Source: a virus. Taken from it: a stretch of DNA of 37,732 bases. Both the position numbers and the translations under genes were made by a program. Below the pieces are notes generated by a model that was not told the DNA's origin, did not search any database, and saw only the letters and a list, made by a program, of their open reading frames with translations. The stretch lies in the IMG/VR virus record IMGVR_UViG_3300033273_000108, positions 1 to 37,732 of that record, one strand, 5' to 3'. Every line of letters starts with the position of its first letter. Position 1 is the first letter of the stretch. Positions 1 through 37,732 of the stretch are shown piece after piece.

Positions 1-141
1 CAGGCCACCGATTTCATCCACCATGAATTCCAACGCCTAAACGGTTACCGCGTACTCAGCGACGCCATACACGACGCCCTGGTCAAAAAGCAGGGTATCA
101 TCAAGAGTTACTACAAGCGCTACCCCACCGCCAAGATTTAC
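1..141. repeat. Left copy of 141-bp terminal direct repeat
   Basis: Bases 1-141 are identical to 37592-37732. The portal frame continues through the join without interruption. A 141-bp overlap equals a common maximum k-mer used by short-read assemblers, so this is most likely the overlap of a circular assembly and not a biological terminal repeat. The non-redundant genome is then 37,591 bp. Confidence 0.95.
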
Positions 142-8429: not shown

Positions 8430-8894
8430 CTACTGCTTATCAATTTGCGGGAGGTTCGACAACGTCAACTGAGTTAACATAATTTGCCGGAATTTAACCC
8501 AATTCACATAACTTTCTGTCAAGTCACCTGACATTACGGAGACGTGCTTTTCGACGTAATCGACCAGGGCATCCATCAAAATTGGCGCAGCGCAAAACTT
8601 GCGTTTGATTTGCGAGATCCACCCGGCGTCCAGGCATTCGTTAACCATCACGCTCGCGGCCTGCCTGGTGATGAACAGCCTGTCGGCGATTTCGGTGCGC
8701 GTCACGCAGCGCTTTTCATATTTTGCCAGGCACATGACCCGGGCAAATGCGTTCCTGGTTGGCGTGCTGTTAAAGTAGCGCTGGATCTCCGTGCCCATGC
8801 GCATGCGGCGCTCCTCATGCAATGCGAGCTGGTGCCTGCAAAGCTCCTCCGCGTATTTGTGCATCAGCTCCCGTTCGACGTCTATGCAGTTCAT
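8430..8894 (-). CDS. MarR-like winged-helix protein
   Basis: A 154-aa protein with a helical N-terminus, then a winged helix at about residues 60-100. TRTEIADRLFITRQAASVMVNECLDAGWI gives the helix, recognition helix and start of wing typical of MarR-like domains. A helical C-terminal dimer-type region follows. It would bind DNA as a dimer, and a regulator of phage early genes is the simplest reading. ATGA overlap with the recombinase gene upstream, with AAGGAGGGAT as ribosome site. The ligand or target is unknown. Confidence 0.65.
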   Translation of the reverse strand: MNCIDVERELMHKYAEELCRHQLALHEERRMRMGTEIQRYFNSTPTRNAFARVMCLAKYEKRCVTRTEIADRLFITRQAASVMVNECLDAGWISQIKRKFCAAPILMDALVDYVEKHVSVMSGDLTESYVNWVKFRQIMLTQLTLSNLPQIDKQ

Positions 8895-9616
8895 TTATCC
8901 CTCCTTAATGCGATGTTCCGCACGGTGGACGCGTACCAGTTGCCTGTCGTGTCCCTGTTGTGTCTGGCGCGCTCTGACGGCGTGCTTACGTTTAATTTGT
9001 TTAAGTGCCGGGCAGTCGCCGAGTATCCCATGCCCTGCGCCAGGCAGCGCTGTATGAGAGGCCAAACCTCGTCGTCGCGTTGCCGAGCCAGTGCGGCCTG
9101 GGCGTCGTTGCCTACCCTGCCCGCGTCGCTGAGCTTGTCGTGGACGCCCAGCCGGGTGATTTTGCGGCCAGCCTTACTGGTGTACGCGCCGTCCTCCTCC
9201 AGCTTGCGCTTTATGTGGTCGATTGCGGCGCGGCTTTTCTCTGCAATGAAATTGCGTTGCTGGTCCGCGGCAGCGCTCAAGACATGCACGGATCCCTTAC
9301 TGATCAGCGGGTCGTCGGCGACCTTAATTTTCATGTCGTACATTTCGACCTGGTGTTTCAGCCAGGTAAGCGACTGCCACTTGCGGGGAAACATCCCCAC
9401 AGTCGACTGGACCGCGAACGTAGCGCTGTTTGTGCGGCAATGGCGGGTACACCGCTGCAACTCCTTTCGGTCACTCTGTTCGCGCTTCTCGTGGCCCTGC
9501 GCCTCCGTAAACCATCGGACCTCGACGTCTTCACCGTCAAACATCGCCTTGATGCCGCGACGCTGACGGTTTTGGTGGTCTTTCGACGCACCGAAAATAA
9601 ATGCTCCGACCTTCAT
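8891..9616 (-). CDS. Serine-recombinase family protein, catalytic site diverged
   Basis: A 241-aa protein. The C-terminal half matches alphaproteobacterial serine recombinases: HVLSAAADQQRNFIAEKSRAAI (long helix E), a linker with TRLG, an RDDEVWPLIQRCLAQG segment, then the Recombinase-type ARHLNKLNVSTPS and WYASTVRNI. In the N-terminal catalytic domain the usual YxRVS is replaced by FIFGAS, keeping Ser11 but losing the conserved Arg. The DRLAR motif reads GMFPR, keeping one Arg (R79). It could be a resolvase or integrase with unusual chemistry, or a DNA-binding protein derived from one. It starts one base after the stop of the preceding gene. No att site was identified. Confidence 0.75.
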   Translation of the reverse strand: MKVGAFIFGASKDHQNRQRRGIKAMFDGEDVEVRWFTEAQGHEKREQSDRKELQRCTRHCRTNSATFAVQSTVGMFPRKWQSLTWLKHQVEMYDMKIKVADDPLISKGSVHVLSAAADQQRNFIAEKSRAAIDHIKRKLEEDGAYTSKAGRKITRLGVHDKLSDAGRVGNDAQAALARQRDDEVWPLIQRCLAQGMGYSATARHLNKLNVSTPSERARHNRDTTGNWYASTVRNIALRRDK

Positions 9617-14729: not shown

Positions 14730-15833
14730 ATGAACATTCTGAGACGTTTATACAACTGGTTTGCGAGGCTTCTTTGGAGGCCCGCAGCGCCAGCTCAAAA
14801 AACAAAGCGCAAGCCTACTAAAAGACGCGAAAAGCAACACTACGGCGCGCATTACTACCTGTCAGACCTACTCGATAACATCGAGAACGCGTTTGGCGCC
14901 ATGGACGGCCTGAAAAAGGCTGACAAGCGGCTGTACAAGGTATTCAGCAAGGTCGCCTGCCACGTCAGCGATGACAACCTGGTGGTGCGTGACGGATACG
15001 AAAACCATTGGCAGATCGACGTCAACGACATCCCGGCCTACGGCTGCGCATACCTACAAAACACGGATCGCAACCGCAAAGCGGAGGACACGGGGCACGA
15101 CAAGATTTGGCCCACCATGATTTTCTTTCGGCGGATCAAGCGGCCATTCAACGTGCAGCCCACCAACAACATCACGCTGGAGATCGGTTTCGTGTTTCAC
15201 AGCGAGCGTGACAAAATCGCGATGACAGACATTTTCTACGCCCAAGTAGACGAGGATGGCACCGTCGAGCCACTGAAATCACTGACGCAAGAAAACGTGC
15301 GCTTGAAGGGCCACCAGAGCTTTGTGCGCACGCGCTGGAAATACCCAGAACACCTGGCGCAGCATTGCCACCAGGAAAACATGAGCATGAACGAGTACGT
15401 CAGCTTTGCGCTGTGGAGCGCGGTGAACATGTGCCTGGCGTCAGACCAGGGGATTCAGGTGCGCGTCGGTAAGGGTCGCCGCCGCATCACGTTCGCCATC
15501 GACATGCTGCGCACGCCGTACTTTTTCAGCGATCGAGACAAGGTCGTCAACGAGAACGGCCAAACCAAGCGCATATTCCACATTGTCAGGACGCATGAGC
15601 GCACCATGGCAAGCGGTGAAAAGAAAATTATAAAGAGCCACACGAAGGGGCTGCGCAAGTTCACCTGGAACGGTTACGGCGTAAACATCATCCTGCCCGG
15701 CAAGCACGGCAACTCGATCAACGCCTGGTCCGGCGACGCAGTCATGCACGACGACCGCGCGCCAATCCCAGACAACTTTATGTGCGAAACCGAGGTTTCT
15801 GAAAGATTTGGAAAATGGCTGGATCACGCATGA
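14730..15833 (+). CDS. Unknown 367-aa protein of the replication module
   Basis: I do not recognize this protein. It begins with a basic amphipathic helix (MNILRRLYNWFARLLWRP) and a Lys/Arg/Thr-rich linker. A long mixed alpha/beta region follows, with clusters such as ACHVSDDNLVVRDGYENHWQ, PTNNITLEIGFVFHSERDK and KGRRRITFAIDML, and a C-terminal HGNSINAWSGD stretch. No Walker or nuclease motif is evident. It lies between the ssDNA-binding protein and the primase-helicase, overlapping the latter by ATGA. A role in replication initiation or loading is possible but is inferred only from position. Confidence 0.8.
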   Translation: MNILRRLYNWFARLLWRPAAPAQKTKRKPTKRREKQHYGAHYYLSDLLDNIENAFGAMDGLKKADKRLYKVFSKVACHVSDDNLVVRDGYENHWQIDVNDIPAYGCAYLQNTDRNRKAEDTGHDKIWPTMIFFRRIKRPFNVQPTNNITLEIGFVFHSERDKIAMTDIFYAQVDEDGTVEPLKSLTQENVRLKGHQSFVRTRWKYPEHLAQHCHQENMSMNEYVSFALWSAVNMCLASDQGIQVRVGKGRRRITFAIDMLRTPYFFSDRDKVVNENGQTKRIFHIVRTHERTMASGEKKIIKSHTKGLRKFTWNGYGVNIILPGKHGNSINAWSGDAVMHDDRAPIPDNFMCETEVSERFGKWLDHA

Positions 15834-17773
15834 CAGATTTCCCCAAACCATACTGGGCGGAGTGGTCAGACCGTATCATCACTCGATACGATCTCCGTGA
15901 GGGGCCGAAGGGTGAATTCCACGGCTCCTGTCCACACTGCGGGCACAACGACTGGCCCAGCACCCGGTTTTGGATCAACGAGAAAGACGGGATGGTGAAA
16001 TTCAATTGCAGGCAATGCAACGATTTCACCAGCATCGTCCAAATTTTAGAAGAGGATGGAGTTTGGCCAGTAGCCGTGGCCAGCTCCAAGGCAGTCAACG
16101 TGGGCGTCACGGCAAGCGATTTTGACAACATCGTGCCAATGCCAAAGCCCGTCAAAAAAGATAAGCCACCCGAGCAGTTCGACCCGTTCACGCCGTACCA
16201 CGAGCGCAAGGGCGTCGAGCTGATCGGCGCGGTTCTGGAAAAGACTGACGTCGTCGTGAAGCTCTACAACACGGAGCGCCAACAGGTGGGCCAGCAACGG
16301 ATCCAACCCAACGGCGACAAGCGGTTCAACACCGGGCTGAACAAGGAGGGCGGCGTGTTCGGCGTCGTCGGAAGGTTTAACCCAGAAAACCCGGGCACCG
16401 TTTGGTTGGCGGAGGGCTGGGCGACGTGCGTGTCAGTACACATGGCGCTCGACAAGCAGCTCCCGGTCATATTCGCGCTGGACAAAAACAACATCCAGAC
16501 AGTCGTCGACGCCCTGACCTTACAATGGCCAGACATTGACATACGCATCGCGGCCGACAACGACGCCAACAACGGCGGGCAGGAAGCCGCGCAAAAGACT
16601 GGACTGCCCTGGACGGCGCCAGCACTGCCGGACACCGACTGGAACGACGTCCACGCTACGCTGGGCCTCTCCGCCGTCAAGCAGGGTCTGACGCAGCTCA
16701 AAAGCCCAGAGAGCCTCCTGGACGAGCTTGTGTGGATCGGTGACGCCGCCCCGGTGCTGAAATCAAACTACCTCATCAAGGGGTGGATCGGCAGGCAACA
16801 AATGGCGGTGCTGTACGGCCAATCCAACACAGGTAAATCATTCCTGATGCTGGACATGGCGTACCACGTCGCGGCGGGCCGACCCTGGCACGATAACAAG
16901 GTGCAGCAAGGCGTGGTGCTTTACCTCGCCGCGGAGGGCGGTCACGGGTATCTCAACAGAGCCAAGGCAATCGCGGACCACTACGGCGACACAGACGTGC
17001 CGCTGGCCGTGCGTCCCTGCCCGGTCAACTTGCTGGATCCCGAGGCGGACCTACCAAAGCTCCGACAGCTCATTGACCTAGTCAAAGACAAGCACGGAAA
17101 AATTGAGCTGATCGTGGTGGACACGTTATCGCGCGCCCTGGCAGGCGGTAACGAAAACGGACCCGAGGATATGACGGCGTACATAAGCAACGCCGACGCA
17201 CTCAGGGATCACGCCCAGGCGACCGTCGTGACGGTGCATCACTCAGGCAAGGCAGACAACGGCGCGAGGGGCCACAGCTCACTCAGAGCCGCAACGGACA
17301 CCGAAATTGAGCTGCGGGTCGACGAAGACGCCGGGATCCGCTTTGCGAAAGCCACCAAGCAACGAGACATCGAGAGCGGCAAGGAATTCGCGTTCGAGCT
17401 GAAAGCGGTCGAGCTGGGGTGCGACGAGGACGGCGACCCGGTCACGAGCTGCTACATCACGCCAGCGGATGACGAGCGCGTCAGCGAGGCCACCACAAAG
17501 CTAAGCCCCAACGAAAGACTGATTGAGCAATGCTTCACGCAGTTGTGGGGCGAGCAGATCGGCGGGCCAAACCCTGGCGGCACGGGATACCCAGAGACGG
17601 GCACGCGGTGGACTATAAACGAGGACCAACTGCGGGAACATTTCTACGGACGGTCGACGGCCACCAACAAACGACAGGCGTGGCAGCGGGCTATCGACGG
17701 GCTACTCAAGAAAGGCGAAATGGCCAAAAACGACGGGTTTTTCTGGCTGGTACGCCAAAAGTACAAATTGTAG
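15830..17773 (+). CDS. Primase-helicase (zinc finger, Toprim, RecA-like)
   Basis: A 647-aa protein. Zinc ribbon: Cys34, Cys37, Cys60 and Cys63 (CPHCGHND...NCRQC). Toprim: EGWATC with Glu195 and ADNDANNGG with Asp243/Asp245. RecA-like/AAA_25 motor: GQSNTGKS (Walker A, 330-337), IVVDTLSRAL with Asp431 (Walker B) and VHHSGK. It should prime and unwind DNA at the fork. ATG 15830 overlaps the previous stop; ATG 15815, five codons earlier, is the alternative. The C-terminus carries a winged-helix-like LLKKGEMAKNDGFFWLV. Its last codons already hold one copy of the GGTACGC repeat of the array that follows. Confidence 0.88.
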   Translation: MTDFPKPYWAEWSDRIITRYDLREGPKGEFHGSCPHCGHNDWPSTRFWINEKDGMVKFNCRQCNDFTSIVQILEEDGVWPVAVASSKAVNVGVTASDFDNIVPMPKPVKKDKPPEQFDPFTPYHERKGVELIGAVLEKTDVVVKLYNTERQQVGQQRIQPNGDKRFNTGLNKEGGVFGVVGRFNPENPGTVWLAEGWATCVSVHMALDKQLPVIFALDKNNIQTVVDALTLQWPDIDIRIAADNDANNGGQEAAQKTGLPWTAPALPDTDWNDVHATLGLSAVKQGLTQLKSPESLLDELVWIGDAAPVLKSNYLIKGWIGRQQMAVLYGQSNTGKSFLMLDMAYHVAAGRPWHDNKVQQGVVLYLAAEGGHGYLNRAKAIADHYGDTDVPLAVRPCPVNLLDPEADLPKLRQLIDLVKDKHGKIELIVVDTLSRALAGGNENGPEDMTAYISNADALRDHAQATVVTVHHSGKADNGARGHSSLRAATDTEIELRVDEDAGIRFAKATKQRDIESGKEFAFELKAVELGCDEDGDPVTSCYITPADDERVSEATTKLSPNERLIEQCFTQLWGEQIGGPNPGGTGYPETGTRWTINEDQLREHFYGRSTATNKRQAWQRAIDGLLKKGEMAKNDGFFWLVRQKYKL

Positions 17774-17959
17774 GAGGGCGTACCAGGTGTACCAAAAAAC
17801 GCTTTTACATAAGATACTGAAAAGAATAGCTAAAATTGCACAGGTGGTACGCTCTGGTACGCTTTGGTACGGTAAATGGTACGGGGCGACACTTAGCGTA
17901 CCATACGTACCATCACCCGTAGGGGGTGGTACGGTGGTACGGTCGATGACTGGTACGCT
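17749..17959. repeat. GGTACG iteron array, candidate replication origin
   Basis: Twelve copies of a GTAC-centred motif in about 210 bp. Direct GGTACG at 17749, 17846, 17856, 17866, 17878, 17928, 17936 and 17952. Inverted GTACC-type at 17778-17784, 17787-17793, 17895-17902 and 17906-17911. Three copies sit on an exact 10-bp period. Between the first inverted pair and the direct block is an AT-rich stretch (17791-17842) like an unwinding element. The array starts in the last codons of the primase-helicase gene and fills the 201-bp gap to the next gene. Iteron plus AT-rich layout suggests an origin; a multi-site operator is the alternative. Confidence 0.8.
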
Positions 17960-17974: not shown

Positions 17975-18199
17975 ATGACTGACCGGGAGCGGATCCTTCA
18001 GCACGTCTGGCGGGCAAAAGATTACGCCGACATGGGGGAGAAAGATTTTAACCGAGTGATCAACGAAATTACCTCTTTGGAGGAGTTAGAGGCCGTGGCC
18101 AATCGGAGAAAGCATCTCCGGGCGCCGCACCTGAAGAAATGGAACCAGTGGCAACGAGACGCAATCCTGCGGAGGCAATGGGAGCTGAAGCATGGATGA
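17975..18199 (+). CDS. Hypothetical 74-aa protein next to the iterons
   Basis: ATG 17975 has GGAGG upstream. The product (MTDRERILQHVWRAKDYADM) is a charged, Trp-rich helical protein, with a basic stretch VANRRKHLRAPHLKKWNQWQRDAILRRQWE at its end that could contact nucleic acid. The immediate position behind the repeat array makes it one candidate for the array-binding protein, but no known DNA-binding fold is evident. It overlaps the next gene by 8 bp. Confidence 0.65.
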   Translation: MTDRERILQHVWRAKDYADMGEKDFNRVINEITSLEELEAVANRRKHLRAPHLKKWNQWQRDAILRRQWELKHG

Positions 18200-37300: not shown

Positions 37301-37732
37301 ATGGAATTAGAACCAAAGAGCAGAGAAGAAATTGAAAGCATCGTCCAGGACGCCATCCAGAACGCGGTGGATTTCGTCGAAAGCGAGATCAGCGACGACA
37401 GGATCAAGGCGCAGCGCTACATGGATGGCGAGGTCGACATCGGATACGAGGACGGCCGCAGCAAGGTAGTCGCCACCAAGGTGCGTGACGTCGTGCGGGC
37501 CGTTAAGCCCAGCATCATGCGGGTGTTTCTCAGCACTACCAAGCCAGTTGAGTTCGTACCGAAGGGGCCGGAGGACGTCGCAATGGCCGAGCAGGCCACC
37601 GATTTCATCCACCATGAATTCCAACGCCTAAACGGTTACCGCGTACTCAGCGACGCCATACACGACGCCCTGGTCAAAAAGCAGGGTATCATCAAGAGTT
37701 ACTACAAGCGCTACCCCACCGCCAAGATTTAC
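37301..37732 (+). CDS. Portal protein (N-terminal part; continues at base 1)
   Basis: First 144 codons of the portal gene. ATG 37301 with GATAAGCGACG upstream gives MELEPKSREEIESIVQDAIQ, then EISDDRIKAQRYMDGEVDIG and VVATKVRDVVRAVKPSIMRV. The pattern is that of podophage portals with an amphipathic N-terminus. The frame is open to the window end and joins the start of the window in phase at the 141-bp overlap. The whole gene is 2,079 bp and 692 aa. Confidence 0.85.
   Translation, partial: MELEPKSREEIESIVQDAIQNAVDFVESEISDDRIKAQRYMDGEVDIGYEDGRSKVVATKVRDVVRAVKPSIMRVFLSTTKPVEFVPKGPEDVAMAEQATDFIHHEFQRLNGYRVLSDAIHDALVKKQGIIKSYYKRYPTAKIY
37592..37732. repeat. Right copy of 141-bp terminal direct repeat
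   Basis: Identical to bases 1-141. Removing one copy gives the circular 37,591-bp genome. Confidence 0.95.

Follow-up and report, generated by a model that had tools for sequence, protein, structure and literature searches.

A repeat array directly downstream of a gene for a fused primase-helicase is, in our reading, the replication origin of the marine phage carrying it, and the enzyme encoded upstream of the array is the protein that reads it. We put the probability of this joint reading, which is based on sequence comparison and on analogy with known systems, at about 0.87. The original prediction had likewise proposed a phage origin bound by a protein encoded nearby. Its first half was retained, since the iteron array, the AT-rich segment and a layout conserved among relatives most resemble an initiator-dependent origin; the binders that it proposed were not. 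The features discussed are given below in the coordinates of the window, by which we mean the whole stretch of 37,732 nucleotides that was analysed.

15815..17773, + strand: fused replication protein of 652 aa with a Toprim-type primase, a RepA/RecA-fold hexameric helicase (residues ~301-545) and a C-terminal winged helix (Pfam, PDB profile, alignments)
17450..17770, + strand: predicted C-terminal winged-helix domain, residues 546-652, proposed iteron reader (AlphaFold, weak PDB matches, covariation with the word)
17660-17662, + strand: codon of A616, just ahead of the recognition helix
17669..17713, + strand: predicted recognition helix, residues 619-633 (helix 74-88 of the AlphaFold model, helix 3)
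17672-17674, + strand: codon of R620, at the start of helix 3, proposed partner of word base 6
17748..17753, + strand: direct TGGTAC in the final primase-helicase codons
17780..17794, - strand: first inverted pair (17780-17785 and 17789-17794)
17795..17842, no strand: AT-rich segment, candidate unwinding element
17845..17882, + strand: four-copy direct block (17845, 17855, 17865, 17877), with a spacing conserved in relatives
17898..17912, - strand: second inverted pair (17898, 17907)
17913..17926, no strand: central palindrome (here CCCGTAGGG), with pairing kept through changes
17927..17956, + strand: last direct copies (17927, 17935, 17951)
17975..18199, + strand: small protein that some members of the family have after the array, retained where the word switches

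The array in the window holds eight direct copies of GGTACG on the + strand (17749, 17846, 17856, 17866, 17878, 17928, 17936 and 17952) and four inverted copies (CGTACC at 17779, 17897 and 17906, TGTACC at 17788), in the numbers that had been predicted, and the copies at 17846, 17856 and 17866 indeed follow an exact 10-bp period. The repeat unit is better described as TGGTAC(G), and 12 of the 19 occurrences of TGGTAC in the window fall in 17748-17956 (~210 bp). From left to right the order is one direct copy, two inverted copies, the AT-rich segment, four direct copies spaced 10-10-12 bp, two inverted copies 9 bp apart, the palindrome and three direct copies. The array was correctly said to start within the final primase-helicase codons, the first copy lying inside codons 645-647 (the stop codon ends at 17773). 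The segment 17791-17842, described earlier as AT-rich, has an AT content of 71% as compared to 44% for the window, and 0.2% of 52-bp stretches are equally AT-rich. Short direct repeats at approximately helical spacing next to an AT-rich segment, as expected of an iteron-type origin, are thus present. When repeated 7-mers were counted per 240-bp stretch, 11 copies were found at the array and at most 4 elsewhere in the window, which contained no second array by this count. The top 6-mer reached at most 5 copies in shuffles of the 360-bp region as compared to 12 observed. No DnaA box (TTATCCACA, up to one mismatch) was found near the array and a DnaA-dependent origin was rejected for that reason; such boxes are present in many initiator-dependent origins, not in all.

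The primase-helicase matched Pfam family AAA_25 (E=5.5e-39) and, just under the cut-off, Toprim_3, with no other family found, and its PDB profile match was RSF1010 RepA (1g8y). Relatives of the enzyme in isolates are annotated as 'helicase RepA family protein'. The C-terminal 107 residues were modeled by AlphaFold with a mean pLDDT of 86.7 and an order of elements, H-E-H-H-E-E, that corresponds to a winged helix. Comparison of this domain with PDB folds gave generic winged-helix matches only, which were statistically weak, and a sequence search with it returned no named relative. Among relatives the N-terminal primase part is of clearly different types, and the helicase, the C-terminal domain and the array remain together. 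At least three unrelated-looking N-terminal primase modules were seen joined to the same helicase and winged helix (window 15815-16700 and relatives).

A single IMG/VR scan with the primase-helicase yielded 80 loci of 45-99% identity. Many contigs are represented more than once, under different locus numbers, and only distinct rows were counted in association tests. In nearly all of these first 80 relatives with enough DNA the array directly follows the helicase gene. The top 6-mer after the stop codon mostly occurred in 8-14 copies versus null maxima of 4-7 (80 loci); by this count the arrays of L003, L011, L019 and L028 were weaker. In L011 most of the array is missing (around 1454-1550), exactly between two direct copies, with the helicase C-terminus intact. 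This is either a natural deletion between repeats or an assembly collapse, misassembly at repeats being possible in metagenomic contigs. The layout is nearly fixed among relatives and consists of two inverted copies, the AT-rich gap, four direct copies (10-10-12 bp), two inverted copies, the palindrome and two or three direct copies. The word in this layout is replaced wholesale, with TGGTAC, TGTTAC, TGGTAT, TCCTCC, TCCGAC, TCATAC, TTCTAC, TTACAC, TCACAT, TAGGAC, TGTAGT, TTATAC and others adding up to at least 15 types. The expectation that the repeats are conserved in related phages was thus borne out for the layout only, the word being lost in close relatives and replaced by another in the same layout.

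Arrays were also found in isolates, namely Roseobacter phages CRP-831, CRP-821, CRP-811 and CRP-406, Alteromonas phage PB15, Idiomarinaceae phage 1N2-2, Salicola phage CGphi29, Rhizobium phage 16-3 and Escherichia phage Haito_Bas83. The word is TTATAC in CRP-831 and TGTAGT in CRP-811. The array of Haito_Bas83 (L382, 4740-4960), whose host is the laboratory strain E. coli K-12, follows the helicase-primase gene and is built from GCGGGAC. Many prophage-like helicase genes of alphaproteobacteria are followed by arrays as well. Among prophage-like loci with more distant RepA-type helicases (L170-L229) the words often end in ACA (CGGGACA, CCGGACA, CGTGACA). No array was found in the stretch read of E. 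coli phage Bas76 and Salmonella phage Sp4, which have more distant helicases, or in the DNA examined of L311 and L167. L311, L167 and the reduced array of L011 count against our reading.

Two close relatives act as natural controls for the exchange of the word. The enzymes of L002 and L003 are 97% and 96% identical to that of the window, yet their arrays use other words. Residues 546-652 hold 14 of the 20 amino acid differences from the window in L002 and 21 of 28 in L003, as compared to 1 of 5 and 1 of 7 in the same-word relatives L001 and L008. At the DNA level the divergence of L002 and L003 from the window peaks from -300 to +200 bp around the stop codon and is at background on both sides. 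With the differences concentrated in the winged helix and the array, it seems that these two are altered or transferred together. Since the first copy of the array is coding sequence, the word switch in L002 also changed V646 to leucine.

The relation between word and protein can be followed to single residues. The residue at position 620 is R, K or H where word base 6 is C and S, N, D, T or A where it is not (91 sequences), and 620 is the sole column of 350 that separates the two classes in these 91 rows; the next best column makes 14 errors. In a set of 56 relatives, among which 15 words occur, all 35 enzymes with R, K or H at 620 had a word with C at base 6, and all 21 with N, S, D or T had one with T there. 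In 35 held-out loci C stood at base 6 in a fraction of 0.92 of the copies (0.75-1.0) when residue 620 was R, and of 0.12 (0-0.45) when it was S or A. Parsimony on a helicase-core tree gave 14 changes each for word base 6 and residue 620, with the residue separating the two classes of word at all 14 switches. Those independent pairs that fall on supported branches were concordant in 10 of 10 cases (sign test p=0.002). The register of the word was set by eye in divergent families. Where the core is the same (TTATA, TCGTA or TGGTA) the sixth base still follows residue 620, so that the register is not in doubt there. Within the clade of the window, 620 ranked first of those columns from which base 6 is fully predicted, and column 616 is the only one to do this for base 3. 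A general rule connecting 616 to base 3 was rejected; it was valid in the first set, and at least one of the held-out loci (L331) breaks it. The replacement of the word in step with the DNA-reading tip of the primase-helicase makes this enzyme very probably the reader, and from the covariation we infer that its winged helix binds the array directly.

The array might instead be an operator at which the primase-helicase or a partner controls the downstream genes or its own operon, with replication starting elsewhere. It does lie between two genes on the same strand, and autoregulation is common among initiators. However, neither a sigma-70-like promoter on the + strand nor a terminator-like site of note was found at the array, and an intrinsic terminator or promoter was rejected as its identity. 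The genes that follow the array differ between families while its layout stays constant. Furthermore, a group of relatives of 43-45% identity has no array adjoining the helicase gene, and in four such records that were read nearly whole (L384-L391; G001-G004) an array of the same style and layout occurs 5-6 kb from that gene, with base 6 as expected, by eye, from residue 620. Such displacement favors an origin over an element bound to the place where the primase gene ends. We consider a purely regulatory role improbable, although it is the strongest of the alternatives.

A still smaller chance remains for another reader, that is one of three neighbours (of 79, 109 and 367 aa), some other protein of the phage or a factor from the host. 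The proteins at 17975, 18192 and 14730 were the binders named in the original prediction, and all three were rejected in view of their absence from most or all relatives and the near constancy of the two small ones across word switches. Among relatives with enough room for the gene in question, 39 of 85 have the 79-aa protein and 26 of 78 the 109-aa protein. None of 52 has the 367-aa protein encoded at 14730, which is missing even in the 99% identical L001. Both the 79-aa and the 109-aa protein are almost unchanged in L002 and L003 despite the switched words. The small protein encoded at 17975..18199 is unlikely to set the specificity of the array, as it is retained when the word switches. Turnover that keeps pace with a residue of a phage protein would be left unexplained by a host factor. 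What speaks for a neighbour is that a 79-aa-like protein follows the array in several relatives and, judged by sequence, apparently also where the array is displaced. In those four records the array is followed by a small protein that resembles the 79-aa protein of the window (ELEGFANRR motif), and it is possible that proteins of this kind are a further replication partner.

The center of the array is itself conserved in form. The inverted pair spaced by 9 bp, the palindrome CCCGTAGGG and the following direct pair make up one symmetric unit, which the original prediction had not pointed out. In relatives the palindrome between the inverted and the direct pair is usually CCTTTAGG, CCTATAGG or CCTTAAGG. 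Its arms vary and their pairing is kept, with 174 of 200 cells paired as compared to a mean of 105 and a maximum of 130 after shuffling; that of the window is among the less perfect, with 3 of 5 pairs. The palindrome may form a hairpin or cruciform, or may be a symmetric center for opposed rings. Least probable of all is that an RNA or single-strand structure holds the copies in step through pairing: inverted copies can indeed pair with direct ones and the palindrome keeps its pairing, but direct copies outnumber inverted ones about 2:1, their unpaired surplus changes too, the covariation with residue 620 is beyond the reach of pairing and no match was found in Rfam, and an RNA element was rejected on these last two grounds.

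The source record is an IMG/VR virus contig that encodes a portal and capsid of SU10 type. A Gp2.5-like SSB and an exonuclease are encoded upstream of the primase-helicase, and no DNA polymerase of family A or B was found in the record, in agreement with what had been predicted. The 367-aa protein (14730-15833), which has no Pfam or PHROG match, sits between the SSB and the primase-helicase. An exact 141-bp direct repeat occurs at both termini of the window (1-141 and 37592-37732), which is therefore probably a complete, circularly closed genome. At 8891-9616 on the - strand weak serine recombinase/resolvase matches were found, below the Pfam cut-offs, suggesting that the phage may be temperate or may carry a mobile gene. 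A check for a switch of GC skew at the array had also been suggested. The third-position GC skew of same-strand genes changes from -0.08 to +0.14 at the array and fades after ~4 kb, and skew was higher on the right than on the left in only 54 of 80 partly redundant loci. This agrees weakly with an origin at the array; the shift is local only and was rejected as proof of one.

The examples of SaPI Rep and P4 alpha allow origin function, self-loading and an order of events to be proposed by analogy, and the position and conservation of the array also point to origin function. The C-terminal winged helix would bind the TGGTAC iterons through its recognition helix, and several copies, which the 10-bp period places on the same face of the DNA, would assemble the RepA-type helicase there. 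Opening of the DNA would follow, either in the AT-rich segment or at the central palindrome, after which the helicase ring would load itself at the array and the fused primase would begin synthesis using the polymerase of the host. It may be that the direct block and the inverted/palindrome/direct unit receive rings that face opposite ways. A wider proposal, to which we give even odds, is that phages widely use a type of replicon whose initiator is the primase/RepA-helicase/winged-helix fusion protein itself. Specificity would diversify constantly by exchange and mutation of a cassette of winged helix and array at fixed layout, giving non-interchangeable origins with a partly readable code from amino acid to base and a palindrome that seats opposed rings.

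To our knowledge, replication origins are not known for most environmental phages. Here a probable origin and its proposed reader are recognizable from sequence alone, since the word and the reading helix vary jointly within a conserved layout. The numerous word-helix pairs found in nature are a ready data set on how initiators change DNA specificity, in which the near-identical phages with switched words serve as controls. If the proposal is true, co-infecting phages or parasites would have origins that cannot be interchanged. Competition between co-infecting phages, satellites that borrow machinery and nucleases aimed at origins are candidate drivers of the turnover. Odn is a nuclease of this kind, aimed at PLE origins (PMC8263062).

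Neither an origin nor iterons are mentioned in the paper describing the CRP phages, and a literature search found no report of such an array in these phages, which is weak evidence as the search was incomplete. Several known systems share parts of the arrangement. In IncQ plasmids such as RSF1010, replication from oriV uses the RepA helicase, the RepB' primase and RepC, a separate protein that reads iterons of ~20 bp. The phage enzyme is homologous to RSF1010 RepA (1g8y) over the RecA-fold helicase core, and both systems have iterons and an AT-rich segment. In contrast to IncQ the reader is fused and the word measures 6-8 bp; no conserved candidate for a separate RepC-like initiator was found next to the array in relatives. 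In P4 alpha, from a satellite phage, a single chain that acts on short repeated sites (ori/crr) carries the primase, the helicase and a winged helix for reading the origin, as proposed here, but its helicase is SF3-type and no sequence match was found between its C-terminal domain and that of the phage enzyme. This primase-helicase fusion has been described (PMC7145576).

According to PMC7581432, which cites Ubeda 2007, the C-terminal domain of Rep from SaPIs, the staphylococcal pathogenicity islands, reads iterons directly downstream of its own gene. Both SaPI Rep and SCCmec Cch2 are presented there as self-loading initiator helicases with a C-terminal domain for short iterons just downstream. 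The position of the array just after the gene and the covariation fit a reader of this type, which would bind the array in the same manner. The SaPI and SCCmec helicases are of the DUF927 or D5/primase-C-terminal kind, whereas the phage enzyme has AAA_25, a RepA-type RecA fold, with a near-threshold Toprim_3 and the RSF1010 RepA match. The phage system further differs in its exchangeable primase modules, its occurrence in phages rather than satellites or cassettes, its layout and its central palindrome. In the PLE satellites of Vibrio phages covariation of initiator and ori, with module exchange, has been described for two types (PMC8263062). PLE RepA is a RepA_N-type initiator without helicase or primase that uses ~30-bp iterons in two ori types, in contrast to the at least 15 word types, fixed layout and residue-to-base correspondence found here. 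With a helicase homologous to RSF1010 RepA and not to those of SaPI/SCC or P4, the phage enzyme falls outside these families, though it appears to work alike. The best reading is that the fused primase/RepA-type helicase/winged-helix protein would be its own initiator, as SaPI Rep and P4 alpha are, with a different helicase fold.
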